Origin: Opitutus sp. GAS368
GTDB lineage: Bacteria > Verrucomicrobiota > Verrucomicrobiia > Opitutales > Opitutaceae
Length of the DNA: 47,752 nt
Assembly: GCA_945903545.1 (NCBI GenBank)
Contig: CAMDOO010000017.1
Location: 1-47,752, forward strand
Reading direction: 5' to 3'
Both the position numbers and the translations under genes were made by a program. Shown in pieces: positions 4,055 through 44,689 of this stretch. Numbering within the stretch: position 1 is the stretch's first letter; each line of letters opens with the position of its first letter. The notes beneath the pieces are model-generated. The model had not been told where the DNA came from and did no database searches. It saw only the letters and a list, made by a program, of their open reading frames with translations.

Positions 4055-4807
4055 ATGTCCTCCACCGCCAAATGGCCCAAGACCCTGCCCGCGCTCGACG
4101 CCGAGCAGCAGCAGCGCAGCAACGAGTTCATGAAGCTGTGGCACCTGGAGCTCGCCGGGCGTCCCCGCTACGGGCTGGTGGAAAAGTTCAACCACTCCTT
4201 CCCGGTCAAGCACTCCCAGGCGGCCTTCAAGACCACGATTGAGATCGGCGCCGGCCTCGGGGAACACCTCGAGTACGAGAAGCTGACCCCGGAGCAGGAG
4301 CAGAACTATTACTGCAACGAGTACCGGGAAAACATGGCCGCGGAGATCCGCCGGCGCTTCCCGCGGGTGAAGACCGTGGTGGGCGACTGCCAGCAGCGCA
4401 TGGATTTCCCGGACGGTTATTTCGACCGCTACATCGCCGTCCACGTCCTCGAGCATCTCCCCAACCTGCCCGCCGCCATCCGCGAGGCCCACCGCCTGCT
4501 CAACAAGGACACCGGTCGCCTCCTCATCGTCATCCCGACCGAGGGGAGCCCGGCGTACAGCCTGGCCCGCAAGATCTCCGCCGAGCGGGTGTGGAAGCGC
4601 CACTTCCAAGCCCCCTACTCCGAGTTCTACCGCCGCGAGCACATCAACCTCGTGCCCGAGATCCTCGCCGAGCTCGACCCGTACTTCACCATCGAGTCGC
4701 GGAGCTTCTTCCCGCTCGGCCTGCCCCTCTGGTTCTGCAACCTCTGCATCGGCTACGCGCTCAAGCCGCGCCGCTTAAGCGCGAGTGAACGTGAAAGAGG
4801 AAAGTGA
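4055..4807 (+). CDS. Class I SAM-dependent methyltransferase, paralogue of the one at 45835
   Basis: A 250-residue methyltransferase of the Methyltransf_11 type. Motif I is EIGAGLGEH near residue 66, the second acidic site is in VVGDCQQRMDFPDG near 108, and the post-motif AVHVLEHLPNLP near 130 is typical of sugar or lipid-linked methyltransferases. The C-terminal part contains a conserved REHINLVPEILAELDPYF block. The substrate is unknown; in this locus a glycan residue is likely. A close paralogue, roughly 60 percent identical by eye, lies at 45835 near the other end of the window. The last residues (SASERERGK) have no match in the paralogue, and their codons and the TGA fall within the left arm of the inverted-repeat element at 4782. 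The natural C-terminus was therefore probably replaced by inserted sequence. Confidence 0.9.
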   Translation: MSSTAKWPKTLPALDAEQQQRSNEFMKLWHLELAGRPRYGLVEKFNHSFPVKHSQAAFKTTIEIGAGLGEHLEYEKLTPEQEQNYYCNEYRENMAAEIRRRFPRVKTVVGDCQQRMDFPDGYFDRYIAVHVLEHLPNLPAAIREAHRLLNKDTGRLLIVIPTEGSPAYSLARKISAERVWKRHFQAPYSEFYRREHINLVPEILAELDPYFTIESRSFFPLGLPLWFCNLCIGYALKPRRLSASERERGK

Positions 4808-4928
4808 GTGGAAAGCGAAAAGTGAAAGCGGGATGACCACCTAGCCCCGCGCCGCCCCTCACCACGCTCACTTCCGCCCCACTGTCACTTTCTCCTCTCA
4901 CTCACCTTCCTCTTTCACTTTCACTTCG
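4782..4928. repeat. Gene-less inverted-repeat element with purine-rich arms (GTGAAAG type)
   Basis: The left arm, about 4782-4830, contains GTGAAAGAGGAAAGTGAG. The right arm, about 4862-4928, read on the other strand, contains GTGAAAGAGGAAGGTGAG, so the core matches with one difference. Both arms are built from short repeats related to AAAGTGA. A GC-rich spacer separates them and no ORF lies between. The element fills the whole gap between the methyltransferase and the epimerase gene. The left arm supplies the methyltransferase stop codon, and the right arm ends seven bases before the epimerase ATG. A perfect palindrome, CGCTTAAGCG, abuts the left arm at 4772-4781. Closely related arms occur at 9701 and 36270. 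Confidence 0.8.
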
Positions 4929-4934
4929 TCCTTC

Positions 4935-9700: not shown

Positions 9701-9825
9701 GCGAGTGAGCGCGAAAGAGAAAGTGAGTGAAAAGTTAAGGTGAAGGAGAACGGACCATAAACTCCGCGCCCCTCCCCTTCCCCCTTTCACTTTCAAACCC
9801 ACTTTCCTCTTTCACTTTCACTCCG
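9701..9825. repeat. Gene-less inverted-repeat element between convergent genes (GTGAAAG type)
   Basis: The left arm, about 9701-9751, contains GCGAAAGAGAAAGTGAGTG. The right arm, about 9778-9825, reads GTGAAAGAGGAAAGTGGG on the opposite strand. The unit and layout match the element at 4782, with a short GC-rich centre and no ORF. It lies between the stop codons of two convergent genes, where it could also act as a two-way terminator. Confidence 0.75.
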
Positions 9826-9848: not shown

Positions 9849-12740
9849 CTACCGCCTCGGCTCAGCCAGCCGCTCCACGGGAATCATCCGGCCGTTGAAG
9901 ACCGGTCCGCAGGTCGAGCCGCCGATCAGGTTTTCCAGCAGGCGGATCTGGCCCGGCGTGGAGGGATGCGTGGGTGACTTGCCCTCCAGCACCGTTTTGC
10001 CATCGAGTTTCACCCGGATCAAGGTGCGCAGTTCCTCCCGCACGCCCGGCGCATACAGGGAGCCCATCGTCACCTCCAGCCGGTGCGACTGGCCGTAGTC
10101 GATCTCGACCGGCGCGCCGTTGATTGCACCTATCCCCCAGTGGTCAAAGCCGAAGCTCACGTGCTTCGCATCGAGGTAACGCACATAGATGATGTTACCG
10201 GCGCCGGTCAGGCCCGTGACGACCAGCGGGTCGGTCACGCCCATGACATGGGTCGGGAACGCGACCGTCATCTCAACTGCACCGCGCTCGCCGTCAAGGA
10301 TCAGCGGCGGCAGGCTCGCCAGTTCCACCGAGCGCGCGCTCACCACCCGTCCGGAAAAGCGCTGCGTCGCCGTGCTCGCGCGATGCGCGTTGAATCCGAT
10401 GACGGCGCTGTCGGGCGCGGCCGGATAGAAGTTCTGTTCGAGGTTCAAGACCACTTTCCCGTCGAAGATGACCACGAGCCGCTGGGCCGGAGCGATGGTA
10501 GTGGCCCCGTTGGCCGGCGTACCCGCCTCGGCCAGCGAGCCCATCCAAACCATGACCTGGTGCAGCTGAAGCGGATCGTACTCGATCAATTCGCTCCGTG
10601 GTCCGCCGTTGCCGAAATGATCCAAGGCAAACCGCACCCCATTTCGGCCTTCGTAGATGCAATAGAGGAGATCGCTCTTGTTGCCCCGTCCTGTCGACAG
10701 GACCGGCTCCGCGCCGGCCTGACGGTCCGCGGGGAACAATAGCGTCAGCTCCACCGGCGCGCGCTCGGTCAGGTCCGGGGCGCGCGGCTCGACGCTGGCA
10801 AAGGGCAGCCGGGTGGATTGCAGGATGCGGCCCGAAAACCGGTCCGCGAATCCTCCCGAGGGCCAGGTCAGTGCGCCCAGCACCAGATTGTCCGCGGTCG
10901 ACTCGTAGCTTTCGAGCATCGCCCGCAGGGTCTCGGTGCCGTTTACCTTCACCTGCAGGTCGCGCCGCACGGTGTCGACCGCCAGCGTATCCCAACCGGA
11001 GTAGTACGGATGGGCCAGCGGCGGCAGCAGCGAGCCGCACCTGGCCTCGACCGTGATGCGCCGATCCGCCGGGATCGTGAACTCAGTTCCCTCCATGGCG
11101 CCCAGGCCGGCGTGAAAAAAGCTCAGCCGCGCCCGGTCGGGCGCGAGATACTCGATAAAGAGCCAGTCGCGCCGCGGCGGCCCCAGGCCGGTCTGAAAAA
11201 GCGGCTCGGCGGTCCCGACCTTCCCCTCCGGCAGTTCCAGCTCGAGCCGCAGGGCACCCAATTCCTCTCCGCGCTGACGCTCCAGCATCGCGGTCGGGCG
11301 ATTCATCACCCGGGCAAACGAAAGCAGATGTCCCTCCAGTGGCAGTCGGCGGAACAGCATCGCCTGCCCGATGAAGACCGACCACGCCGCGACCGCCACG
11401 ACCGCCACTGCAAGCCCGCGCCGCGCGATGGCGACGGTGGGCCGGAACTCGCCCAATGTCATGGCCCCGAGCGCGGCCAGCAGCAGCCAAGTCGGCACAA
11501 TGTCCCCGGCATAACGGTCGTTCACGCCCGAGAAGGCCGAGAGCAGCACCAGGTTCACCCCGGCCGACATCCCGACGATCCACGGGAAAAACCGCCGCGC
11601 CTCGATCAGGGTCTCTCCCGGCTCCCGGCCCGGCCGCCAGAAGGCGAACGGCACCATCCAGAGCCAGGGCAAGTAACGCAGCATGCCCAGGGTCGTACCC
11701 GGGGTCGGCGCAAAGAACGGGAAATAGGACGACCACGCCCCCGCCCCCCAGAGATACGTGCTGCCGTTGCTCCAAAGATTGGAGAGCGAAAAGGGCACGT
11801 AGTTGGTCTGCTTCGACCCCGCCAGCATGTAGCTCACGCCGAATTCCGTGAGGGACCCGAAGCGCAGCCAGTTGTAGAGCAGCAGCCCGGCGCCGACCAC
11901 CGCCGCCGGGCCAAAGGCGGCGAGCAGAAGCCGGCGGGCCCCGGCCCGGCGCTCCGGCGCATCCGGCGGAGCGGATGTCCGCCAGACCCACCACGCCGCG
12001 AGCGCCAGCATCAGTCCGCCCGGCAGATAGTTCGGCCGCGCCCCGACCGAGAGACCGAAAAGCAAACTCGCGGCGGCGAGCCACCAGGTCCGCTTCGGAC
12101 CACCGACCAACGTCCGGTGGAGCGCCGCCAGCACCAGCAGGTGCAGGGCGTACGCGCAGGCGATGGGTACCTGATAAAATTCCGCCCATTGCGCGAGCAG
12201 GCCCACCGGGCTGGCCAGCCCCAGGCAGGCCACCGCCAAGGGCGCCATCCAAGCCGGCGCACCGGGAAACCACCGCCGCCGGACCGACCCGATCAGGGCC
12301 GCCCCAGCGCCGAGCCCCACCGTGAGGAAAAACGCGACGGCAAACGGCTCGGTGGGATAAAAACCCGTCAGGAGCCGCACGGGCAGGAACAGCAGCACCA
12401 CCGGCGTCACGCCAAAGTACAGGTAGTATTTCCCCTGGAAGAGCGACATGTCGTGCACCCGATAAGGCGCGTTCGCCACCGGATCGTAGGGATCGGGCAG
12501 CGCGAGCAGCGCCGGATGCGGCTCGATCGCGGCGTACAGGTGCCCGGACCTGAAGCCCTCGGCCAGCAACCCGTAATAGCCCTGCGGCGTCCGGCCGAAC
12601 GCCGTGTTCGGGTACTGCAGCGCGGTCCCGAAATAAACCGCGGCGCAGGCCAGCACGATCACAACCATCCACGGGATCTCACCCCGGCTGGAGATAGCGG
12701 CTCCCCGGGATGGCGTCGATCGATCGCTGGGCTTTGGCAT
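9849..12740 (-). CDS. Polytopic GT-C-like membrane protein with three C-terminal HWG-type repeats
   Basis: A 963-residue protein. Residues 25 to about 470 hold some ten to twelve membrane segments, with the signature HDMSLFQGKYYLYFGVTP near residue 90 and LYNWLRFGSLTEFG near 290. Both motifs recur in the proteins at 15931 and 22365, so these three form one family. Three beta-rich repeats begin near residues 493, 657 and 817; the third has the clearest signature (SFGFDHWG, then MGSLYAP) and ends with NLIGGST and FNGRMIPVERL. The family looks like a periplasmic glycosyltransferase of GT-C type in which the repeats are exported. No catalytic residue can be assigned with certainty. The ATG at 12740 is well placed before a hydrophilic N-terminus and the first helix. 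It is a single minus-strand gene between two plus-strand groups. Confidence 0.85.
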   Translation of the reverse strand: MPKPSDRSTPSRGAAISSRGEIPWMVVIVLACAAVYFGTALQYPNTAFGRTPQGYYGLLAEGFRSGHLYAAIEPHPALLALPDPYDPVANAPYRVHDMSLFQGKYYLYFGVTPVVLLFLPVRLLTGFYPTEPFAVAFFLTVGLGAGAALIGSVRRRWFPGAPAWMAPLAVACLGLASPVGLLAQWAEFYQVPIACAYALHLLVLAALHRTLVGGPKRTWWLAAASLLFGLSVGARPNYLPGGLMLALAAWWVWRTSAPPDAPERRAGARRLLLAAFGPAAVVGAGLLLYNWLRFGSLTEFGVSYMLAGSKQTNYVPFSLSNLWSNGSTYLWGAGAWSSYFPFFAPTPGTTLGMLRYLPWLWMVPFAFWRPGREPGETLIEARRFFPWIVGMSAGVNLVLLSAFSGVNDRYAGDIVPTWLLLAALGAMTLGEFRPTVAIARRGLAVAVVAVAAWSVFIGQAMLFRRLPLEGHLLSFARVMNRPTAMLERQRGEELGALRLELELPEGKVGTAEPLFQTGLGPPRRDWLFIEYLAPDRARLSFFHAGLGAMEGTEFTIPADRRITVEARCGSLLPPLAHPYYSGWDTLAVDTVRRDLQVKVNGTETLRAMLESYESTADNLVLGALTWPSGGFADRFSGRILQSTRLPFASVEPRAPDLTERAPVELTLLFPADRQAGAEPVLSTGRGNKSDLLYCIYEGRNGVRFALDHFGNGGPRSELIEYDPLQLHQVMVWMGSLAEAGTPANGATTIAPAQRLVVIFDGKVVLNLEQNFYPAAPDSAVIGFNAHRASTATQRFSGRVVSARSVELASLPPLILDGERGAVEMTVAFPTHVMGVTDPLVVTGLTGAGNIIYVRYLDAKHVSFGFDHWGIGAINGAPVEIDYGQSHRLEVTMGSLYAPGVREELRTLIRVKLDGKTVLEGKSPTHPSTPGQIRLLENLIGGSTCGPVFNGRMIPVERLAEPRR

Positions 12741-30200: not shown

Positions 30201-31247
30201 ATGGCCGGGATCCTCCTGCAGAATCCCTCCCCCCTGCCCGCGGGGACCCGGCTCCGGGAGGTCGATGAGCTCAAGGGCTGGGCGATGCTGCTGGTGCTGC
30301 TCTACCACATCGGCGGGGTGCTGGGCTGGCCGAACTGGCTGCACGGCGAGGTGGGCGTGGATGTCTTCGTCATCATCAGCGGGTTCACCCTCGCCCGCAG
30401 CTCCGCCCAGCTCGGCTGGAAGGATTTTGTGCTGCGCCGGATGCTCCGCATCTATCCAGCATACTGGATCGCACTCGGCCTTTTCCTCTATCTCAGCTGG
30501 CGCTTCTACGCTGTCGAGCGCGACGGTCTGAACATCACCCTGCACGTCCTCGGCGTCCACGGATTTTCCCTTCCGGCGTACTTCAGCGATATCAACGACT
30601 CTTTCTGGTTCATTTCGCTCATCCTGCTCCTCTACGCGGTCTTCCTCGGCGTGCGCCGGCACCTCGACGACGTGACGACCGTCCTCGGCGTGGGCTTCCT
30701 CCTCGCGGCCGGGGTCACCTGGGCCTACCTCGCGGCCGGCCACGGCGGCGCGATCGGCCACTTGGCCGTGCGCATCCCCAGCTTCTTTGTCGGGCTCGTC
30801 GCCGGGCGGCTGACGCTTCCCGAACCGGTCAGGATCCGGTTCAACCTGATGTTCGCCGTCGGCATGCTCGCCCTCGTCTATCTGGGATTCAGGACCAACA
30901 TCATCATGTTCTACGCCTTCGCCGCCCCGGCCCTCATGGCCGGGTTCCTCGTCGTGCGCCGGACCTTGGTGAAACATCCGGATGGCCGCTTCGTCCTCTC
31001 GGGTTTCGCCCTCCTGGGAGTGTACTCCTATGAGATCTTCCTTTTCCACCAGCCGCTGATCCGGGACTACAACCGACTCATCTGGGGCAGCACCATGGGC
31101 GTGGATAACCCGAACAATTGGCAACTGGGCACGGGAATCGCACTCGCCCTGCTCGTCACCTTTCTCATCAGCGCCATCGTCCACCGCCTGACCAACTTCA
31201 TCTTTTCGCGCCGCCAACCGGACGCCCCCGCCGCACCTCCCGCATGA
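30201..31247 (+). CDS. Acyltransferase family 3 membrane protein
   Basis: A 348-residue integral membrane acyltransferase (PF01757) with about ten helices. REVDELKGWAMLLVLLYHIGG near the N-terminus contains the catalytic-type histidine, and GVDVFVIISGFTLARS and RRMLRIYPAYWIAL are hallmark family segments. FLFHQPLIRDY near residue 285 is the conserved late motif. Such proteins usually O-acetylate or otherwise acylate a polysaccharide, using acyl groups passed through the membrane. The position between hddA and hddC suggests that the acceptor is heptose-containing, but this is inference. The gene begins six bases after hddA and its TGA overlaps the hddC ATG (ATGA), so these genes are translationally coupled. 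Confidence 0.92.
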   Translation: MAGILLQNPSPLPAGTRLREVDELKGWAMLLVLLYHIGGVLGWPNWLHGEVGVDVFVIISGFTLARSSAQLGWKDFVLRRMLRIYPAYWIALGLFLYLSWRFYAVERDGLNITLHVLGVHGFSLPAYFSDINDSFWFISLILLLYAVFLGVRRHLDDVTTVLGVGFLLAAGVTWAYLAAGHGGAIGHLAVRIPSFFVGLVAGRLTLPEPVRIRFNLMFAVGMLALVYLGFRTNIIMFYAFAAPALMAGFLVVRRTLVKHPDGRFVLSGFALLGVYSYEIFLFHQPLIRDYNRLIWGSTMGVDNPNNWQLGTGIALALLVTFLISAIVHRLTNFIFSRRQPDAPAAPPA

Positions 31248-31966
31248 GCCCGCCCTCCGCCGTCCTCCCCGTCGCCATCCTCGCCGGTGGCCTCGCCACC
31301 CGCCTCCGCCCCATCACCGAGAAGGTGCCCAAGATCCTGATCGAGGTCGCGGGCGAACCCTTCTTCTCCCACCAAATCCGCCTGCTCAAGCAGGCCGGCC
31401 TCACCCGGCTCGTGCTCTGCGTGGGTTACCTCGGCGAGAAAGTCGTTGAGCTTTACGGCGACGGGTCGAAGTGGGGCGTGCACATCGAGTATGCCTTCGA
31501 CGGCCCAAAGCTCCTCGGCACCGGCGGCGCCCTGATCCAGGCGCTCCCGAAGCTCGGCGACGCCTTCTACGTGCTCTACGGCGACAGCTACCTGCCGGTG
31601 GACTACCAGGCCGTCGGCCGCTTTTTCCTCGGCTCCGGCAAACTCGGGCTGATGACCGTCTACGAGAACGCCGAGCTCTACGACGCCAGCAACGTCCGCT
31701 TCGAGGCCGGCGCCATCCGCGTCTACGACAAGAAGCACCGCGTCCCGCAAATGCGGCACATCGACTACGGGCTGGGTGTTTTCCGGGCGGCGGCATTCCG
31801 GGATTTCCCTCGGGACAACTTGGTCGATCTCGCGACCGTGCAACAGTCCCTCCTCGCCCGGGGAGAGCTCGCCGGCTACGAGATGCACCAGCGGTTCTAC
31901 GAGATCGGCTCCCACGCCGGTCTCGCGGAACTCGATGCCTTGCTGCGGGCGCAGCCGAAGGAATGA
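31244..31966 (+). CDS. hddC: D-glycero-alpha-D-manno-heptose 1-phosphate guanylyltransferase-like nucleotidyltransferase
   Basis: A 240-residue nucleotidyltransferase. AILAGGLATRLRPITEKVPK near residue 10 is the nucleotide-binding signature with the K of the KxPK motif, and LYGDSYLPVDY near 104 holds the metal-binding acidic residue. YEIGSHAGLAEL near the end resembles the C-terminal HddC block. Its place among hddA, gmhA and gmhB makes HddC the best call; a related hexose 1-phosphate nucleotidyltransferase is the alternative. A longer ORF reaches back to 31118, but the ATG at 31244 overlaps the previous stop codon and directly precedes the catalytic loop. The stop codon lies within the left arm of the inverted-repeat element starting at 31960, so the last residue or two may be element-derived. 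Confidence 0.88.
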   Translation: MSPPSAVLPVAILAGGLATRLRPITEKVPKILIEVAGEPFFSHQIRLLKQAGLTRLVLCVGYLGEKVVELYGDGSKWGVHIEYAFDGPKLLGTGGALIQALPKLGDAFYVLYGDSYLPVDYQAVGRFFLGSGKLGLMTVYENAELYDASNVRFEAGAIRVYDKKHRVPQMRHIDYGLGVFRAAAFRDFPRDNLVDLATVQQSLLARGELAGYEMHQRFYEIGSHAGLAELDALLRAQPKE

Positions 31967-32399
31967 AGGAATGAGGGAGTGAGGGGGATATTCCGGCACC
32001 ATGTCACAGCACGACAGTCTTCATCGCTTCATCGCCTATCGGAAGGCGTGCGAGCTGTTTGACTTGGCGGTCGCCGACATGACGCCGCTGGCGCAGAATC
32101 CGCTCTGCGCGCGCCTCGTGGCCCAGCAGATTGCCAGCGCGGATTCTGTTTCGTCGAACATCGAGGAGGGCTACGGCCGGCGCAGCCGGGCCGACTACGC
32201 CCGTTTTCTCGTGATCGCCCGTGGCTCGGCTACTGAGACGCGTGGAAGATATGAACAACGCTTCAAGCATTGGCTCCCACCCGAGACCATCGCCGCGCGT
32301 GTTGACTTGTGTGAGGAAATCATCGCCATCCTCAGCGCCACAATCCGGACTTTACGCCCCGAAACCAAACCCTAACTCCCTCATTCCCTAACTCCCTTA
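31960..32399. mobile_element. Inverted-repeat element carrying an intact four-helix-bundle gene
   Basis: The left arm, 31960-31987, contains GGAATGAGGGAGTGAGGG. The right arm, 32370-32399, read on the other strand, contains GGAATGAGGGAGTTAGGG, one mismatch in 18. The arms are short tandem units of 7-8 nt. Between them is a single gene of the 23S-IVP/S23 four-helix-bundle family. The arms contribute the hddC stop and the stop of the carried gene, and the right arm ends six bases before the gmhA ATG. The layout resembles 23S rRNA intervening sequences but lies in a protein-coding operon. No target-site duplication is obvious. Confidence 0.75.
32001..32375 (+). CDS. Four-helix-bundle protein of the 23S rRNA intervening-sequence (S23/IVP) family
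   Basis: A 124-residue all-helical protein. The family signature is visible as FIAYRKACELFDLAVADM in helix 1, SADSVSSNIEEGYGR near residue 47, and YARFLVIARGSATETRGR near 66. These proteins (PF05635/TIGR02436) were first seen inside intervening sequences of fragmented 23S rRNA genes and are related to the bAvd accessory protein of diversity-generating retroelements, a pentameric basic four-helix bundle that binds nucleic acid. No reverse transcriptase is present in this window. The function of the stand-alone form is unknown; binding of the flanking stem in RNA or DNA is an inference. The gene lies 34 bp after the hddC stop, inside arms of simple repeats, and it interrupts an otherwise functional set of heptose genes. 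Its stop codon is in the right arm. Confidence 0.88.
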   Translation: MSQHDSLHRFIAYRKACELFDLAVADMTPLAQNPLCARLVAQQIASADSVSSNIEEGYGRRSRADYARFLVIARGSATETRGRYEQRFKHWLPPETIAARVDLCEEIIAILSATIRTLRPETKP

Positions 32400-32405
32400 C
32401 GCCTC

Positions 32406-33011
32406 ATGTCCTACTCCGTCCAACACTTGAAGGAAACCGCCGAGATCGTCTCCCAGATCAACCCCGAGGACTGCGAGAAGTGCGTCCGCGAGCTGGTCGG
32501 CGTGCGCACCCGCGGCGGGCGCCTCTTCATCCTGGGCGTGGGCGGCAGCGCGGCCAACGCCTCGCATGCGGTGAATGACTTCCGCAAGATCGCCGGCCTC
32601 GAGGTCTACGCCCCGACCGACAACGTCTCCGAGCTCACCGCCCGCACGAACGACGACGGCTGGGCCAGCGTCTTTGTCGAGTGGCTCCGCGGCTCCCGCC
32701 TCAACAGCAAGGACGCCATTCTCATCCTCTCCGTCGGCGGCGGCAACCTCGAGAAGAACGTTTCCCCCGGCTTCATCTCCGCGATCCAGCTCGCCAAGGA
32801 AGTCGGCGCCCGCGTCATCGGCATCGTCGGCAAGGATGGCGGCTACACCAAGCAGCAGGCCGACGCCTGCGTCCTGGTTCCGACCGTCAACGCCAACAAC
32901 ATCACGCCTCATTCCGAGGCCTTCCAGGCCGTCATCTGGCATCTCTGGGTTTCGCATCCCGACGTGAAGGTCAACCAGACGAAGTGGGAGTCGGTCACGC
33001 CGAAGGCGTGA
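32406..33011 (+). CDS. gmhA: Sedoheptulose 7-phosphate isomerase (SIS domain)
   Basis: A 201-residue SIS-fold isomerase, the expected size for GmhA, which converts sedoheptulose 7-phosphate to D-glycero-D-manno-heptose 7-phosphate, the first step toward activated heptose. LFILGVGGSAANASHAVNDF near residue 41 is the sugar-phosphate loop (compare GNGGSAAxAxH in GmhA), and ILSVGGGNLEKNVSPG near 108 is the second SIS loop, with GGG where serine-rich sequence is common. The altered second loop leaves room for a related ketose-phosphate isomerase. It is sandwiched between the two four-helix-bundle elements, six bases from each: one ends just before its ATG and the other begins just after its stop. 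Confidence 0.87.
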   Translation: MSYSVQHLKETAEIVSQINPEDCEKCVRELVGVRTRGGRLFILGVGGSAANASHAVNDFRKIAGLEVYAPTDNVSELTARTNDDGWASVFVEWLRGSRLNSKDAILILSVGGGNLEKNVSPGFISAIQLAKEVGARVIGIVGKDGGYTKQQADACVLVPTVNANNITPHSEAFQAVIWHLWVSHPDVKVNQTKWESVTPKA

Positions 33012-33017
33012 TCGACT

Positions 33018-33455
33018 GAGGCGGGAGGCTGGAGGCGGAAGGCCGGAGGCAAGATGCCGCAGACGTATCGCCAGTTGCAGGTTTGGCATCGGAGCAAGGC
33101 GCTGGCGGTTTCGGTCTATCGAATCACTGCAGCCGCTCCCTTGGGCACGGACTTTGGACTTCGCGATCAGCTTCGTCGGGCTTCTGTGAACATTTGCAGC
33201 AACATCGCGGAAGGCGATGCCCGCCAGACCGACAAGGAATCGGTTCAATTCTTCTTCATCGCCAAAGGCTAAACCGCCGAGGTTTCGGCCCAACTCGAAA
33301 TCGCCCGCGAACTCCACCCGGCAATCGCTCCCCAGGCCGACGATCTGATTCGCGAATGCGAAGAGATCTCGGCCATGCTCCAAGCCCTCATCAAACACCG
33401 CCGCAATTGATCCCCGCCGTGGCCTCCCCCCTCCAGCCTCCTGCCTCCCGCCTCC
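33018..33455. mobile_element. Inverted-repeat element carrying a nonsense-mutated four-helix-bundle gene
   Basis: The left arm, 33018-33050, is made of heptamers (GGGAGGC, TGGAGGC, GGAAGGC, CGGAGGC). The right arm, 33422-33455, on the other strand, is made of GGAGGCG, GGAGGCA, GGAGGCT and GGAGGGG. The arms are thus complementary over about 33 nt, with a different heptamer from the neighbouring element at 31960. The enclosed gene is a second S23/IVP family member with an in-frame stop. The element begins six bases after gmhA and its right arm runs into the 5' end of gmhB. Confidence 0.75.
33054..33410 (+). pseudogene. Four-helix-bundle (S23/IVP family) gene interrupted by one stop codon
   Basis: The frame from ATG 33054 reads 72 codons, with the signatures LQVWHRSKALAVSVYRIT and ASVNICSNIAEGDARQ, then meets TAA at 33270-33272 after FFFIAKG. 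Reading on in the same frame gives TAEVSAQLEIARELHPAI and a normal family C-terminus (ECEEISAMLQALIKH), ending at TGA 33408-33410. The intact neighbour and the family have Ser after the Gly (ARGSATE), so one C-to-A change turning TCA into TAA explains the break. The full-length product would be 118 residues. A sequencing error is possible. It lies inside the heptamer-armed element and has clearly diverged from the neighbour at 32001, so the two are separate acquisitions rather than a recent duplication. Confidence 0.85.
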
Positions 33456-34003
33456 AAGATAATCGCAAAGCGATTTTCTTGGATCGTGACGGCACCCTGA
33501 ACCTTCAGGTTGTCCGCGCCGGGAAACCCTATCCGCCTGATCGGCTGGAGGACTTCAAGCTCTTCGCCGATGTGCCCGCCGCCTGCCGCGCGCTTCATGC
33601 CGCCGGTTATGTCCTGGTGGTGGCCACGAACCAGCCCGATGTCGGCCGGGGCGACCAGCAGCAGGAGGTCGTCGAGTCCATGCATGCCCGCCTCAAGGAG
33701 CTGGTCCCCGAAATCGACCGCGTGGAGGTCTGCTACGCTCCCGGCCAAGGCGTGGAGCATCCCGAAAATCGCCGGCGCAAACCCGAGCCCGGCATGGTGC
33801 TCGATGCCGCCCGCGAGCTCGGGCTCGACCTGTCCCGCTCCTGGATGGTCGGCGACCGCTGGCGGGACGTCGACTGCGGCCAGCGCGCCGGCCTGCGCAC
33901 CGTCTTCATCGACTTCGGCTACGCCGAGGAGCTCCGCGCCGCCCCGGATTTCACCGTGAAGTCCTTCGGGGAGGCGGCCGGAATTATCCTTGCCCAGCGG
34001 TGA
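33419..34003 (+). CDS. gmhB: D-glycero-D-manno-heptose 1,7-bisphosphate phosphatase-like HAD protein
   Basis: A HAD-superfamily phosphatase of about 194 residues that removes the 7-phosphate from heptose 1,7-bisphosphate. FLDRDGTLN holds the catalytic DxD, VVATNQPDVGRGD is the T/N-containing motif 2, RRRKPEPGM the lysine motif 3, and MVGDRWRDVDCGQRAG the acidic motif 4. The usual GmhB zinc loop (CxH...CxC before RKP) is reduced to one Cys and one His. The start is uncertain: no ATG lies just before the core. The GTG at 33419 is taken as the most economical choice, while an ATG at 33356 would read through the tail of the four-helix pseudogene. In either case the first residues (ASPLQPPASRLQ) come from the right arm of the inserted element. 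The stop lies 30 bases before the transaldolase ATG. Confidence 0.85.
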   Translation: MASPLQPPASRLQDNRKAIFLDRDGTLNLQVVRAGKPYPPDRLEDFKLFADVPAACRALHAAGYVLVVATNQPDVGRGDQQQEVVESMHARLKELVPEIDRVEVCYAPGQGVEHPENRRRKPEPGMVLDAARELGLDLSRSWMVGDRWRDVDCGQRAGLRTVFIDFGYAEELRAAPDFTVKSFGEAAGIILAQR

Positions 34004-36269: not shown

Positions 36270-36359
36270 GAAGTGAAAGTGAGCGAGGTAAGTGAGTGCC
36301 AGTGCCGGCACTTTCACGGATTGGCACCTTCACTCACTTTCCTCTTTCACTTTCACTTC
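36270..36359. repeat. Gene-less inverted-repeat element between convergent genes (GTGAAAG type)
   Basis: The left arm, 36270-36300, begins GAAGTGAAAGTGAGCGAGG. The right arm, 36323-36359, begins GAAGTGAAAGTGAAAGAGG on the opposite strand, so about 30 bases pair with few mismatches. The loop holds the perfect palindrome AGTGCCGGCACT at 36301-36312. The element fills the gap between the convergent stops at 36259 and 36362 and could form a roughly 90-base hairpin in either transcript. It is the most compact member of the group also seen at 4782 and 9701. Confidence 0.8.
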
Positions 36360-36361
36360 AG

Positions 36362-38819: not shown

Positions 38820-38844
38820 CAATGTCATCTATTAGATGACATTG
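38820..38844. promoter_or_regulatory. Palindromic site 1 in the divergent control region
   Basis: ATGTCATCT and AGATGACAT flank ATT at 38822-38842, and the symmetry extends two bases on each side to 38820-38844. The sequence is AT-rich in a GC-rich genome, in a region with no gene, between divergent starts. It looks like a dimeric regulator's operator. The reverse complement of its core is identical to site 2 at 38895-38915. Confidence 0.6.
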
Positions 38845-38894
38845 GGCGCTGGGATCCCCGGGACATGCCATCCATGGCGGTCTATGCCGGGGGA

Positions 38895-38915
38895 ATGTCA
38901 TCTAATAGATGACAT
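38895..38915. promoter_or_regulatory. Palindromic site 2 in the divergent control region
   Basis: ATGTCATCT and AGATGACAT flank AAT. The core is the exact reverse complement of site 1. The centres of the two sites are 73 bp apart, close to seven DNA turns, which would allow looping or cooperative binding. The 262-bp gap from 38758 to 39019 has no other recognisable feature; a purine-rich GGAGGGG lies at 38993-38999, rather far from the start at 39020. Confidence 0.6.
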
Positions 38916-39019
38916 CTTGCCGGTGCAAAGGGGTCGGTGGGCGTGGCGGCTTCCGCCCGGTGCCGGCGATCGCTGATTTTTGATCTAGCACGGAGGGGAT
39001 CATTTCCGGCACGCTGAAG

Positions 39020-42000
39020 TTGGTGAACATCCTCTTCGTCAACTACGGCGATTTCACAAGCAACAGCCTGAACCACATCGCCGGGTTCGCGAACACCCTC
39101 GTCGCTCAGGGTCACGCCTGCCTCGTCGCCGTCCCGACCGGGGCCGAGACCATCTCAGTCATCCCCGGCCCGCGCTTCACCCCCGCCTTTTTCGCCGACC
39201 TGCTGGCCAAGCCCGCCGCCTTTCCCGACGGCCGCCCCGCCGACCTGATCCACGCCTGGACTCCCCGCGAGGTGGTGCGCCGCTTTGTCCTCGCCTATCA
39301 GCCGCACGCGAAGGCCCGCCTCGTTATCCACCTGGAGGACAACGAGGACTTTCTGCTCTCGGCCTGGCTGCAGGCTCCGGTCGCGTCCGTGCAGGACATT
39401 CCCGAGTCCGACCTCGCGGAAAAATCCTCGCTCGGCCTCTCCCACCCCCGCCGCTACCGCCAGCTCCTGCGCGTGGCGGATGGCGTCACGCACATCATCG
39501 GACCGCTCGCCGAGTTCATCCCGGCCGGCGTGCCCGCCCTCGAGCTCCCGCCGGGGGTTGACCCCAAGCTCTATGCCCCGCAGCCGGCCGACCCGGAACT
39601 GCGCCGCGAGCTCGGGCTGCGCGCCGGCGAGCGCGTCATCACCTTCACCGGCAGCATCACCTTCGCCAACGCGCCCGAGATGCGTGACCTTTACGCCGCC
39701 GTGGCATTGCTGAATGCCCGCGGGACCCCCACCCGGCTCATCCGCACTGGACTGACCCAGCCGTCCTTCCAAGAAAGCCTGTCCCCGGCCGAACGCGCCT
39801 CCGTCATCGAGCTCGGCTTCGTCGCGAAGGCCAAACTCCCCCGCCTCCTCGCGCTGGCCGACGTCCTCGTTCAACCCGGCCGCGCCGGCCCCTTCAACGA
39901 CTACCGCCTGCCCTCCAAGCTGCCGGAATTCCTCAGCTCCGGCCGGCCCGTGGTCCTGCCCGCCACCAATCTCGGGCGCGTGCTGCGCGACGGCGCCGAC
40001 GCCCTGCTGCTGCGCACGGGTTCCGCGGCGGAGATCGCCGACGCCTGCACCCGGGTCTTCCAGGACGCCGCCCTCGCGAAAAAACTCGGTGAAAACGCCG
40101 CCGCCTTCGCCCGCCGGCATTTCGATCCCGTGGCCATCGGGGCCCGGCTCGGCAAATTCTACCAGCAACTCCTGGCCCAGCCGGGCACCACGGCCGCCCT
40201 CGCCGCGGGCGAATCCGAGATCTCACTCGTCCTCCGCCAGCTCGCCGCCCGGCCGGCCGATCCCGCCGGCGCCGCCATCGCGGGCGAACTCTTGCCCCTG
40301 GTCTCGTCCCTCGAACGCGGCGATGCCAGCCGGGCCGAGCACGCCCGGCTCGAACGTGACGCCGCGCATTGGCGCAAGCACCGCGAACTCGCCGAACAGC
40401 ACGCCGCCCAATGCGAGGAGAAGGCCCGCCTCGCCGGCGAGCATGCGGCCCACCTCGAGGGCCAGCTCCGGCTCGCCACCGACCACACCCACCATCTCGA
40501 GAATCAGCTCCGGCTCGCCACGGACCACACCCAGCATCTTGAGGGCCGCCTCCGGCTCGCCGAGCAGCACGCCCAGAATCTCGGCGCCGAATTCAAGGCC
40601 GTCCAGATCCAGCTGCGAGAGGTCCAGGCCCAGCACGCCGAGGCGGCACGCCTGACCCACCAGCACATCACCAACCTCGAGCAGATCCGCGATTCCCTGC
40701 AACGGCGCGTCAACGAACTCGACGCCCACCTCGCCACCGCCACCCAGGCCCGGGACGCGGCCCAGGCCCGCCTCCGCAACCTCCAGCAGAGCTTCTCCTG
40801 GCAGGTCACCCTCCCCCTGCGCTGGCTCCGCCGGACGTTTGTCGATCCGCTGACGCGAAAGACCGAGGACAGAGGACAGAGGACGGAGGACGGAAGACCG
40901 AGGACCGCCTCTTCTTCCCTGCCCCTTACTCCCTCGCCCGTCCCTGCTCCCTCGCGATCCGCCGAAGGCGGAATCGCGGTCTGGCACAGCGTCGACTACC
41001 CCCAGAGCTGGAGCCTGCCCCCGCGCACCCATGTCCTCCGGGGCTGGTGCTTCGCCGACGACGCCCGGAAACTCACGGGCATCCGCGCCGTGCTGCCTGA
41101 GCGGATCGTCGAGGGCACCTACGGACTCAAGCGGCTCGATGTTCTCGCCTCCGTCCGGGACAAAAAACAGGCCGAATACTGCGGCTGGCGCCTCGAACTC
41201 GAGCTCCGCGAGGGCGACATGCTGCTCGACCTCGAGACGAAGGACGCAGACGGACGCTGGCACCGCTTCTTCCATGCCGATCTCAAGGTCGGCGAAGGAC
41301 TCGGCGCACTCGACCTCACTTCCTACGAAAAGTGGATCGAGGTCTACGATCGCCTCACCCCCGAGCGCTGGCAGGCGCAAGCTGCGGAGTCAGACCGCCT
41401 CGCCAACCAGCCGCTGATCTCCGTCCTTGTCCCCGTCTACAACACGCCCGAGCGCTGGCTGGTGAAGGCAGTCGATTCCGTCCGCCGGCAGTCCTACCCC
41501 AACTGGGAACTCTGCCTCGCCGACGACGCCTCGCCGCAAGCCCACATCCGGCCCCTGCTGGAAAAAATCGCGGCCTCCGATCCCCGCATCAAGGTCACCT
41601 TCCGCGAGAAAAACGGTCACATCTCCGCCTGCTCCAACTCGGCGCTCGCGCTGGCGACCGGCGAGTTCATCGCCCTGCTCGACCACGACGACGAACTGAC
41701 GCCCCATGCGCTGTTCGAGGTCGTGAGCCTGCTGAATGCCCGGCCCGACACCGACTATGTCTACAGCGACGAGGACAAGATCGACGAGGACGGCCGCCGC
41801 CATGAGCCGTACTTCAAGCCCGACTACCTGCCCGACCTCTTCCTCGCCCAGAATTACACCTCGCACCTTTCCGTCTACCGCGCCGCGCTCGTCCGTGTGG
41901 TCGGCGGCTTCCGCCAGGGCTACGAGGGCAGCCAGGACTGGGATCTCGCCCTGCGCGTGGTCGACCGCTCCACGCCCGACCGCATCCGGCACATCCCCAA

Positions 42001-43063
42001 GGTGCTCTACCACTGGCGCGCCATCCCCGGCTCCACCGCCCTGCTGATCAGCGAGAAGAACTATCCACTCGAGGCCGCGCGCCGCGCGCTGACCGATCAT
42101 TTCGCCCGCCTCGGTCAGCCCGTAACCCTTGAGCACGTCCCCGGCGACCATTGGCGCGTCCGTTATCCGCTGCCCGCCCAGCCGCCCTCGGTCACGCTCA
42201 TCATCCCGACCCGCAACGGCCTCAAGTTCCTCCAGCGCTGCATCGACAGCATCCTCGCCAAGACCAGCTACCCGTCGTTCGAGGTGCTCGTGCTGGACAA
42301 CGGCTCCGACGATCCCGCCACCCTCGCCTACCTCCGCACGCTGTCCGACGGCACCCACCCGCACCTCCGCCCCGGCCACACCGCCCGCGTCATTTCCGAT
42401 CCCTCCCCTTTCAATTATTCCGCCCTCAACAATCGCGGCGTGCGCGAAGCGCAGGCCACGATTGTTGGACTGCTCAACAACGACCTCGAGGTGATCCACC
42501 CCGACTGGCTCGACGAGATGGTCGCCCAGGCCGTCCGCCCCGGGATTGGCTGCGTCGGCGCGATGCTCTACTATCCCAACGACACCATCCAGCACGCCGG
42601 GGTGGTGATCGGGCTCGGCGGCGTCGCCGGCCACGCCTTCCGCGACTTCCCGCGCGGCAGCCACGGCAAGTTCAACCGCGCCCGACTCGTGCAGAACTAC
42701 AGCGCCGTCACCGCCGCCTGCCTGCTCATCCGCAAGTCGACCTACGAGCAGGTTGGCGGGCTGGACGAAAAGGACCTCGCCGTCGCCTTCAACGACATCG
42801 ACTTCTGCCTGAAGGTGCAGGCCGCCGGCTACCGCAATCTCTGGACCCCGTTCGCCGAGCTCTACCACCACGAGTCCGCCACCCGCGGCGCCGACGACAA
42901 CCCCGAGAAGGCCGAGCGCTTCCGCCGCGAGGTCGAGACAATGATGCTGCGCTGGGGTCCGGTGCTCACGAGCGATCCGGCGTACAATCCGAACCTCACG
43001 CTCGAGCTGAACGACTTCACGCTCGCGGTCCCGCCGAGGGCACCAGTGACGGGTGACAAGTGA
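39020..43063 (+). CDS. Large glycosyltransferase with one GT4-like and two GT2 domains plus coiled coil
   Basis: A 1347-residue cytoplasmic enzyme. Residues 1-390 are a GT4-like (GT-B) domain with NILFVNYGDF at the start and DYRLPSKLPEFLSSGRPVVL near 295. Residues about 440-605 form a coiled coil with 14-residue repeats. Residues 613-652 are a low-complexity linker made by an in-frame repeat element. Residues about 655-770 are a beta-rich domain with the motif LRGWCFADDARK. Two GT2 domains follow: one from about 797 (ISVLVPVYNTPERW, LLDHDDEL, YSDEDKIDEDG) and one from about 1054 (VTLIIPTRNGLKF, SPFNYSALNNRG, LLNNDLEVIHPDW). Such multi-domain enzymes usually build a repeat unit or chain, with each domain adding one linkage. 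The start is unclear: TTG at 39020 or GTG at 39023, with no close ribosome site. The last residues PVTGDK come from the inverted-repeat element at 43045. Confidence 0.88.
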   Translation: MVNILFVNYGDFTSNSLNHIAGFANTLVAQGHACLVAVPTGAETISVIPGPRFTPAFFADLLAKPAAFPDGRPADLIHAWTPREVVRRFVLAYQPHAKARLVIHLEDNEDFLLSAWLQAPVASVQDIPESDLAEKSSLGLSHPRRYRQLLRVADGVTHIIGPLAEFIPAGVPALELPPGVDPKLYAPQPADPELRRELGLRAGERVITFTGSITFANAPEMRDLYAAVALLNARGTPTRLIRTGLTQPSFQESLSPAERASVIELGFVAKAKLPRLLALADVLVQPGRAGPFNDYRLPSKLPEFLSSGRPVVLPATNLGRVLRDGADALLLRTGSAAEIADACTRVFQDAALAKKLGENAAAFARRHFDPVAIGARLGKFYQQLLAQPGTTAALAAGESEISLVLRQLAARPADPAGAAIAGELLPLVSSLERGDASRAEHARLERDAAHWRKHRELAEQHAAQCEEKARLAGEHAAHLEGQLRLATDHTHHLENQLRLATDHTQHLEGRLRLAEQHAQNLGAEFKAVQIQLREVQAQHAEAARLTHQHITNLEQIRDSLQRRVNELDAHLATATQARDAAQARLRNLQQSFSWQVTLPLRWLRRTFVDPLTRKTEDRGQRTEDGRPRTASSSLPLTPSPVPAPSRSAEGGIAVWHSVDYPQSWSLPPRTHVLRGWCFADDARKLTGIRAVLPERIVEGTYGLKRLDVLASVRDKKQAEYCGWRLELELREGDMLLDLETKDADGRWHRFFHADLKVGEGLGALDLTSYEKWIEVYDRLTPERWQAQAAESDRLANQPLISVLVPVYNTPERWLVKAVDSVRRQSYPNWELCLADDASPQAHIRPLLEKIAASDPRIKVTFREKNGHISACSNSALALATGEFIALLDHDDELTPHALFEVVSLLNARPDTDYVYSDEDKIDEDGRRHEPYFKPDYLPDLFLAQNYTSHLSVYRAALVRVVGGFRQGYEGSQDWDLALRVVDRSTPDRIRHIPKVLYHWRAIPGSTALLISEKNYPLEAARRALTDHFARLGQPVTLEHVPGDHWRVRYPLPAQPPSVTLIIPTRNGLKFLQRCIDSILAKTSYPSFEVLVLDNGSDDPATLAYLRTLSDGTHPHLRPGHTARVISDPSPFNYSALNNRGVREAQATIVGLLNNDLEVIHPDWLDEMVAQAVRPGIGCVGAMLYYPNDTIQHAGVVIGLGGVAGHAFRDFPRGSHGKFNRARLVQNYSAVTAACLLIRKSTYEQVGGLDEKDLAVAFNDIDFCLKVQAAGYRNLWTPFAELYHHESATRGADDNPEKAERFRREVETMMLRWGPVLTSDPAYNPNLTLELNDFTLAVPPRAPVTGDK
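40400..40567 (+). repeat. Four 42-bp tandem coding repeats in the glycosyltransferase coiled coil
   Basis: Units begin at 40400, 40442, 40484 and 40526 and encode 14 residues each, two coiled-coil heptads, of the type H-x-x-H-L-E-x-Q-L-R-L-A-T-D. The second and third are nearly identical at the DNA level, and a partial fifth follows to about 40582. Copy number may change by slippage, which would alter the length of the spacer between catalytic domains. Confidence 0.75.
40859..40978. repeat. Heptamer-repeat element inserted in frame in the glycosyltransferase gene
   Basis: Seven consecutive heptamers occupy 40859-40907: AAGACCG, AGGACAG twice, AGGACGG twice, AAGACCG, AGGACCG. A pyrimidine-rich stretch follows to about 40952, itself in 7-nt units such as GAGGGAG and CAGGGAC on the other strand, then a hairpin CGCGATCCGCC, GAA, GGCGGAATCGCG at 40953-40978. 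The length keeps the frame open and adds about 40 residues beginning KTEDRGQRTEDG and rich in Ser and Pro. It lies exactly between the coiled coil and the next beta domain. Confidence 0.7.
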
Positions 43064-43144
43064 CGGGTGACGAGTTCGATCCCCGGAAAGATCTTTCCCT
43101 CCCCCCTGTCCGCTCTCGTCACTCGTCACCTGTCACCCGTCACT
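43045..43144. repeat. Gene-less inverted-repeat element with GTGACGG heptamer arms
   Basis: The left arm, 43045-43074, and the right arm, 43115-43144, match in 28 of 30 bases when one is read on the opposite strand. Heptamers are GTGACGG, GTGACAA, GTGACGG and GTGACGA. The loop contains the perfect palindrome GGAAAGATCTTTCC at 43085-43098. The glycosyltransferase stop codon (43061-43063) is in the left arm, and the ATG of the next gene follows the right arm by six bases. Confidence 0.82.
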
Positions 43145-43846: not shown

Positions 43847-44581
43847 TCAGGCCTTCGTCGCCACCGCAAAGACCGACGACCCGAACGGCAGCCCACCGCC
43901 GTCGCGGATCCATCCGTTCTCCAGCGCGGCCAACGTGCGCAGAACCGCCTCAACCGGCGCCGGCTGCAGCTCGACGTCGCTCCCGCCCTTCGGCGCGGGA
44001 AACAATTTGCGCCGCGCCACCACCAGTGGGAACACGCTGAGGTTGGCATGCGTGGCGCAGACCGCCGAAAAACCGGCCGCAGTCAGGAGCTTGACCAAAC
44101 CCGCCCGGCGGTAACGCCGCCGGCCGCCGACCGCCTCGTCGTGGTACGACCAGAGCCACGGATAAGCCGGTACATTCACGATCAAGACTCCGCCGGGCCG
44201 CAGCACGCGGAAAGCTTCGTTCACCGCCGCGGCATCGTCATCGAGATGGTAAAGCACGTCGGCCGAGACCACCGCATCGAAAGAGCCGTTCGGATAAGGC
44301 AGCGACGTGACGGAACCTTCGGCCAAGCGAACCGGCTCGCCGACCCGCTCGCACGCCAGACGGACGGCCAGGGGATCCATGTCGATTCCCGTCCAGCGCC
44401 AGCCGGGAAGTTTCCGCCCCAGCCGGCGGATCAATCCACCCGTGCCACAGCCAGCGTCGAGAATTTCGCCCGTACTGCCCACCCGAGCCGCCAATTGGTC
44501 CGCAATCCGGCCGTGCAGCGCCTGGAAGTACCACATGCGGTCCTCCACCTCGGCGAGCTTGAGATATTCGGCGGATTGCAT
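43847..44581 (-). CDS. Class I SAM-dependent methyltransferase
   Basis: A 244-residue methyltransferase. Motif I is EILDAGCGTGGLIRRLGRKL near residue 39, the ribose-binding acidic residue is in WTGIDMDPLAV, motif post-I is SVTSLPYPNGSFDAVVSADV, and ADVLYHLDDDAAAV with VLRPGGVLIVNVPAYPWLWS completes the UbiE/Methyltransf_11 set. The N-terminus contains EDRMWYFQALHGRIADQL, seen in methyltransferases that sit in polysaccharide clusters. The frame stays open far upstream, but the ATG at 44581 fits the conserved region and leaves a normal divergent gap of 108 bp to the gene at 44690. It converges with the coiled-coil protein gene. The acceptor is unknown. Confidence 0.87.
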   Translation of the reverse strand: MQSAEYLKLAEVEDRMWYFQALHGRIADQLAARVGSTGEILDAGCGTGGLIRRLGRKLPGWRWTGIDMDPLAVRLACERVGEPVRLAEGSVTSLPYPNGSFDAVVSADVLYHLDDDAAAVNEAFRVLRPGGVLIVNVPAYPWLWSYHDEAVGGRRRYRRAGLVKLLTAAGFSAVCATHANLSVFPLVVARRKLFPAPKGGSDVELQPAPVEAVLRTLAALENGWIRDGGGLPFGSSVFAVATKA

Positions 44582-44689
44582 CCTGGGGCGACGCCGAGAG
44601 TGCGAGCGGGCGCGGACGCGGCAAGCCAGCACACACACTGCACCCATTTTCCACTGGCCGGTAAGCGGCGCTCCTGTAGTCCCTGATCC

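Follow-up and report, generated by a model that had tools for sequence, protein, structure and literature searches.

S23/IVP genes between inverted arms of short tandem repeats: probable small mobile elements located between protein genes

In the present study, we describe a short S23/IVP gene that is enclosed by inverted arrays of short tandem units and lies between two protein genes of Opitutus sp. GAS368. It is located in a 47,752-nucleotide stretch of contig CAMDOO010000017.1, analyzed as a whole and referred to here as the window, and the whole feature probably represents a small mobile genetic element whose S23 protein recognizes the arms and helps to mobilize them. Sequence comparisons show that the arms and the S23 gene belong together as a single unit, which appears to move over evolutionary time. 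Elements of related sequence are found at sites that are themselves unrelated, and their similarity stops at the arms. Moreover, where some relatives carry the element, others have an empty site, a gene-less hairpin, or a different occupant.

RESULTS

Element a and other features of the window

An earlier note on this DNA had described inverted arms around an S23/IVP gene, and both parts of that description were confirmed. The arms of this element (element a) were re-found independently at 31960-31985 and 32370-32395 (26 nt each, with 22 of 26 positions paired, i.e., 85% complementary, and 384 nt apart), and the reported 17/18 match of the 18-nt arm core was reproduced when read off the sequence. 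The enclosed ORF matched PF05635 at 53.5 bits (cut-off, 33.8) as well as TIGR02436, four helix bundle protein. PF05635 was its sole Pfam match, and no transposase family (DDE, HUH/Y1, or serine) was found in this ORF. The whole element measures ~440 nt and has an arm score of 16, a value that 2 of 417 control pairs with the same spacing attained. With a period of 8, it belongs to a minority type, and its units do not follow the 7-nt YYAG pattern described below. The closest relatives of its protein among those compared came from other families or phyla and were 34-47% identical; none of the 12 listed relatives has the 8-nt unit. No Rfam match at the gathering score was detected anywhere in the window, and element a is not located inside a 23S or 16S gene.

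The earlier note had placed element a in a heptose operon. The hddC-like, gmhA-like, and gmhB-like neighbors (the last a HAD-IIIA phosphatase) speak for this setting, which is nevertheless likely rather than proven, because the NTP transferase read as hddC (71.6 bits; HddC model cut-off, 300) and the SIS-domain protein taken to be gmhA (52.6 bits) both score below the cut-offs of their models.

Table 1. Positions of the arms, S23 genes, host genes, and hairpins in the window
Feature	Position	Strand	Remarks
Left arm, element a	31957..31985	+	TRF array; 8-nt units, GGAATGAG type; overlaps stop codon of hddC-like gene
S23/IVP gene, element a	32001..32375	+	PF05635, TIGR02436; 124 aa, open frame
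Right arm, element a	32370..32397	+	TRF array, 8-nt units; overlaps stop codon of S23 gene
hddC-like nucleotidyltransferase, upstream host gene	31244..31966	+	Profile search
gmhA-like SIS-domain isomerase, between elements a and b	32406..33011	+	Profile search
Left arm, element b	33018..33050	+	7-nt units GGAGGCN
S23 gene remnant, element b	33054..33411	+	In-frame TAA at 33270-33272
Right arm, element b	33422..33456	+	TRF array, arm scoring
Gene-less hairpin	43045..43144	.	Unit of S23 element L004 (GGTGACA/AGTGACG)
Gene-less hairpin-like pair	4784..4930	.	GTGAAAG/CTTTCAC units, by eye; outside computed list of periodic pairs
Gene-less hairpin-like pair	9702..9823	.	GTGAAAG/CTTTCAC units, by eye; outside computed list of periodic pairs
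Gene-less hairpin-like pair	36270..36360	.	GTGAAAG/CTTTCAC units, by eye; outside computed list of periodic pairs

The window hosts a second armed S23 copy, element b (33018-33456), which has a period of 7 and starts seven bases after the gmhA-like gene. Neither element b nor the overlap of the element a arms with two stop codons (Table 1) figured in the earlier note. In the nearest relative compared, G030 (same genus; gmhA 98% identical), the copy at the place of element b carries an apparent frameshift, read off the sequence comparison. The site of the hairpin at 43045-43144 is empty in G030.

Two other repeat features were observed in the window. An array of GACCGAGGACAGAG-type 7-nt units occupies 40861-40907; it has no inverted partner among the listed periodic inverted pairs, and similar strings recur at several places in G030. 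In addition, a palindrome, GTCATCTA(T/A)TAGATGACAT, occurs in two copies at ~38820-38920, and G030 does not have both together.

Arms are found at most S23 loci within and beyond the phylum

The host genome (3.08 Mb, 122 contigs) yielded 13 PF05635 matches, and 12 of these loci (all but L012) have an arm score of at least 16. S23 genes were found in 81 of 100 genomes of the host family and in 181 of 240 genomes of the phylum. Taking an arm score of at least 14 as armed, we found arms in 79 of the 102 listed family loci, which were drawn from the best-scoring PF05635 matches rather than at random, and in 20 of 29 other S23 loci of the phylum, versus 5 of 417 control pairs. Across phyla, 59 of 78 unclipped loci (from the best 80 of 560 confirmed places) were armed versus 8 of 604 control pairs. 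All 10 plasmid copies fetched, from among 39 records with a PF05635 match, were armed as well; nine are cyanobacterial and one is from Gemmatirosa. PIN-domain genes of the family genomes served as a gene-based control and had arms in none of 25 unclipped loci. None of the 80 best-scoring cross-phylum loci overlapped an rRNA model at the gathering score (1.2-kb flanks were covered; rRNA genes are often absent from MAGs).

These counts keep duplicates, namely L083/L247 (overlapping coordinates, i.e., one locus twice), L077/L172, and L085/L090 (identical arms). The S23 arms of L077, from this phylum, and L172, from a MAG labeled Spirochaetaceae, are near-identical, which reflects either recent transfer or mis-binning.

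The arms have a 7-nt unit and a fixed orientation relative to the gene

We analyzed the arms of 169 armed loci, comprising 99 from the family and phylum, 61 cross-phylum loci, of which two are clipped, and all plasmid loci except L171 (nine of ten). Arm identity was 0.72, 0.71, and 0.69 at lags 7, 14, and 21, whereas the remaining lags between 2 and 20 gave 0.24-0.28. A period of 7 fitted best in 153 loci, and the left arms of these, aligned in phase, gave the unit NNNYYAG, with A at 86% and G at 87%, values that are somewhat high because the phase was fitted. The number of units varies between loci. Relative to the gene, the 5' arm displays the AG strand in 146 loci and the CT strand in 7, with a tie in 16, and the gene and its arms therefore stand in a fixed mutual orientation. 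Unit variants tended to be mirrored in register between the arms (20.8 observed versus 17.7 permuted; higher in 71 of 96 loci), with p ≤0.05 singly in 10 of the 96 and with arms cut out by an alignment that itself favors register.

S23 elements occupy operon interiors and recur at different sites

The ten representative family sites that we read all lie inside operons, and S23 there is codirectional with both neighbors: rfbB-rfbA, livK-livH, a sigma-54 response regulator-kinase pair, gyrB-gyrA, pheS-pheT, nuoF-nuoG, lysC-thrC, two ABC permease-ATPase pairs, and gatA-gatB (at seven sites one gene was checked by Pfam; the remaining names were read from the sequence). Plasmid placements include those between cas6 and cas4 and between two ribonucleotide reductase genes, and 3 of the 9 annotated plasmid copies are opposite to both neighbors. 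The Anabaena plasmid pANA02 (L432) has an armed element at 44265-44633, with S23 between cas4 and cas6, and also an annotated avd gene (10186-10539) beside an RNA-directed DNA polymerase gene.

Among pairs of elements from different sites, unit similarity was 6.08/7 at a protein identity of at least 70% (37 pairs) and 3.75/7 at an identity of 40-50% (1,649 pairs). The high-identity pairs are not independent, as 25 of the 37 join gyrB-gyrA, pheS-pheT, and gatA-gatB (mean, 6.6); the other 12 had a mean of 5.1/7, with a range of 3 to 7. In 20-nt windows, the match between elements from those three sites was 0.91 for the left arm, 0.82 for the right arm, and 0.69-0.83 for the two ends of the gene, but 0.41-0.49 in the flanks, starting one window outside the arms (eight chosen element pairs; best of 17 shifts). 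Homology bounded by the arms looks like that of a mobile unit.

At nuoF-nuoG, the unit shifts on both arms between genera (GGAGTCA versus GAATCCA). The livK-livH site is represented by 13 loci, and several sites are occupied across many genera; movement is therefore slow or partly vertical. Judging from codon comparisons, the S23 gene is under purifying selection: the median dN/dS was 0.06-0.19 at four sites (from 21/28, 11/28, 50/78, and 19/21 pairs), at dS values of 1.3-2.0, which are near saturation. An in-frame stop was present in the S23 gene of 4 of 102 family loci, with frameshifts outside this count. Site cluster 0 (18 loci) was not used as one site, since it arose by single linkage across several gene families. 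An apparent inversion at the same site between species proved to be an artefact of loci being kept in the orientation of their contigs; once they had been re-oriented, the rows listed contained no edge of opposite orientation.

Junctions are occupied, gene-less, or empty in relatives

The gyrB-gyrA junction was compared in 30 genomes. S23 with AGTAGCG arms was found in five. Five others hold gene-less hairpins with a score of at least 14 and other units (L273, L274, L275, L292, and L294, of which L274 is that of G030), four hold a PDDEXK_3 gene (L285, L286, L298, and L301), and two hold PIN genes (L281 and L297). Ten are empty (junction of ≤96 nt, arm score ≤9), and four are weaker or unclear (L288, L293, L299, and L300).

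At hddC-gmhA, S23 was present only in the host genome among the 26 loci with both genes mapped (hddC was not found in L046, L050, L059, and L064). One of these junctions, L072, has gene-less TGAGGGAGTGAGG arms of the unit type of element a with a score of 13, and its genome, G029, has no S23 match. Downstream of gmhA, S23 was found in 4 of 30 loci (L043, L044, L051, and L070), and L046 has like arms without a gene (score, 17.5). The flanks of occupied and empty relatives are too diverged for a target-site duplication to be read. In several genera of the family we also observed a hairpin family with 6-nt GTTCTC-type units (L275, L292, L420, L423, L429, and L008 of the host).

Collectively, the arm-to-arm homology at different sites and the occupied versus empty junctions bear out the earlier proposal of an IVS-like module, consisting of arms and S23 gene, that has inserted itself among protein genes, as it were, and appears to be mobile. 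That note had named independent variation of arms and gene as telling against it, and here the result is mixed: gene-less arms do occur at the same junctions, but arms move with the gene between sites. The latter led us to reject, as a general rule, the homing of a bare S23 gene into pre-existing arms, although this may have happened at hddC-gmhA, where L072 has its gene-less arms. Domestication, also raised earlier, is unlikely for both window copies, because none of the 25 other genomes with a mapped hddC-gmhA junction has copy a, and the gene of copy b is broken.

Gene-less hairpins share units with the S23 arms of their genome

In 447,752 bases of the host genome, we identified 32 periodic inverted pairs versus 4 in resampled sequence, and 19 of the 32 are gene-less, with a period of 6-8 and loops of 10-150 nt. 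The mean best similarity of these 19 hairpins to the 12 armed S23 elements of their own genome was 15.58; random sets of 12 elements from other family genomes gave 9.93 (maximum, 12.05), and none of the 2,000 sets reached 15.58. Matches in unit were seen with L004 (GGTGACA type), L008 (CGTTCTC), L002 (AGTAGCG), L010 (GATTTTC), and L005 (AGAAGTC), and 6 of the 19 hairpins scored below 11 against every S23 element of the genome. Unit sharing had the same direction in G027 (p 0.093; 3 hairpins, 7 of 15 S23 arms compared) and G037 (p 0.057; 7 hairpins, 4 of 10 S23 arms compared), in both cases not significantly. As for internal sequence, the best loop-loop local score among the 19 hairpins was 9; their loops are unrelated, and the hairpins therefore do not represent copies of a single MITE.

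A second protein family has arms with its own unit length

PDDEXK_3 (PF13366) genes were found in 52 of 61 family genomes, with 11 copies in the host genome and 1 in G030. In 21 of 27 unclipped loci, these GxxExxY genes have inverted arms with a score of at least 14, and the best period was 9 in 12 loci, 8 in 5, and 10 in 4. The units resemble, by eye, CACRGAGNN; genes inside such ~9-nt-unit arms include the four at gyrB-gyrA (L285, L286, L298, and L301) and those among L332-L361. A unit length that is specific to the protein family is our strongest hint of arm recognition by the proteins, and a second family with a unit length of its own suggests a general rule.

DISCUSSION

We propose that the S23 protein would recognize its own arms and take part in their mobilization, and that gene-less hairpins with the same unit as the S23 arms would be derivatives of the element or targets served in trans. 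The element would persist mainly between co-transcribed genes, read in the host direction, because there it could use the host transcript and break nothing.

The earlier note had proposed an mRNA-processing or insulating element, in which the stem formed by the arms is cut by RNase III or shields the mRNA and S23 could bind the stem; selection on the RNA would then keep the arms matched. We regard this as unlikely, although part of it agrees with our data: predicted RNA folds pair the arms of both window elements (z of -2.0 and -2.8), so that the transcribed arms are probably able to form a stem, as had been suggested. The codirectional placement at all ten representative operon sites would suit such a role, as would the register matching above permutation in 71 of 96 loci, with only 10 at p 0.05 singly and an alignment that favors register; the Coxiella IVS, moreover, is cut by RNase III in vitro (PMC4990558). 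Selection for a stem was not borne out, however. On the sense strand of the 169 armed loci, we counted 154 G-U wobbles and 204 A-C mismatches, a difference opposite to that expected for a selected stem (p 0.0095); by locus the count was 43 against 66. Since G-U is not favored over A-C, this test gave no sign that RNA pairing maintains the arms. In addition, two species of the genus have different units at one junction, many junctions are empty, and the three plasmid copies opposite to both neighbors do not fit. An RNA hairpin may still form and be cut by RNase III, by analogy with published rRNA IVSs.

That the arms are ordinary simple repeats made by slippage and unlinked to the gene is extremely improbable. 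Short tandem units expand and contract by slippage, and the unit number does vary between our loci, but the control counts (5/417, 8/604, and 0/25), the 146:7 strand polarity, and a period that is specific to the protein family all speak against it. The gene-less hairpins that share units with the S23 arms of the same genome would also agree with a regulon, in which S23 would be a nucleic-acid-binding regulator that controls its own gene and acts in trans on the hairpins; indeed, the annotation of heptanucleotide pairs in Geobacter gives them as predicted binding sites of a global regulator (PMC2700814, in the part available). We consider this quite improbable, as there is no conserved target set, units at gyrB-gyrA differ or are absent across genera and in a same-genus relative, and such arms occur in a genome without S23 matches (L072 in G029). 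A mobile element with an arm-recognizing S23 protein thus remains our preferred reading.

This reading predicts that each S23 protein binds its own unit and that gene-less hairpins with that unit depend on it. A 2024 study of CPR rRNA genes describes PF05635 as functionally uncharacterized (PMC11270868, as far as its available text goes). S23 genes within repeat-array arms across many phyla, for the most part with protein genes on either side, would explain both this family and IVSs in one way, and they offer a possible source of the heptamer repeats of bacteria. More tentatively, and at somewhat less than an even chance, mobile elements that lack a recognized transposase may form a pan-bacterial superclass. 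A small protein would set the word length of their tandem-array inverted ends (7 nt, NNNYYAG, for S23; ~9 nt, CACRGAGNN, for PDDEXK_3/GxxExxY), and ribosomal IVSs, cyanobacterial and Xanthomonas heptamers, and the Geobacter "regulator sites" would belong to the superclass as members or gene-less derivatives.

Comparison with known systems

RAYTs are Y1 transposases, and S23 is, to our knowledge, no known nuclease. In having a small gene between inverted hairpin repeats and many gene-less copies, the S23 elements resemble REP elements with their RAYTs, and MITEs, as presented in the available part of PMC2817692. Unlike in REP/RAYT systems and classical MITEs, the gene-less hairpins have loops that show no relation to each other. 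Structures have been solved for two S23 relatives, 2gsc, the product of the Xanthomonas S23 gene XCC0516, and 2rld, and the passages available of PMC10053308 describe Avd (4DWL) and the PF05635 protein 2GSC as homologous folds. In contrast to diversity-generating retroelements with their Avd, the S23 elements that we read enclose no reverse transcriptase (arm interiors only).

Cyanobacterial STRRs are repeats of 7-nt units and are largely intergenic. According to the portions available of the respective papers, the heptanucleotide GGGAATC forms 70 inverted pairs in Xcc, with repeats in Nostoc too (PMC4692102), Geobacter has paired heptamers (PMC2700814), and Beggiatoaceae have a TAACTGA heptamer (PMC4679880). 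The arms described here are like these heptamers in their 7-nt units and largely intergenic position, and in the inverted pairs often seen in Xanthomonas and Geobacter. The abundance of heptamer repeats in bacteria has been noted, and the Xanthomonas repeats have generally shown no association with mobile elements (PMC4692102, same portions). Neither S23 nor a four-helix gene is mentioned alongside the heptamers in the portions available of the three papers, and a search of the open-licence PMC literature (titles, abstract starts, and passages) returned no published link between S23 and heptamers.

The closest parallel is with the IVS of Coxiella, which, in the available text of PMC4990558, is 428 nt long, has an S23 ORF and terminal inverted repeats that form a 28-bp stem, carries tandem heptameric repeats (GACAGAT) before the ORF, in its 5' region, and is called selfish; the function and origin of IVSs are there said to remain unclear. 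Element a shares with it an S23 ORF within terminal inverted repeats and a similar size, and differs in lying between protein genes, whereas the Coxiella IVS sits in helix 45 of the 23S rRNA and is cleaved by RNase III (PMC4990558). Because the Coxiella IVS combines an S23 ORF, terminal inverted repeats, and heptameric repeats, we take rRNA IVSs, by analogy, to be the rRNA-sited members of the armed S23 family.
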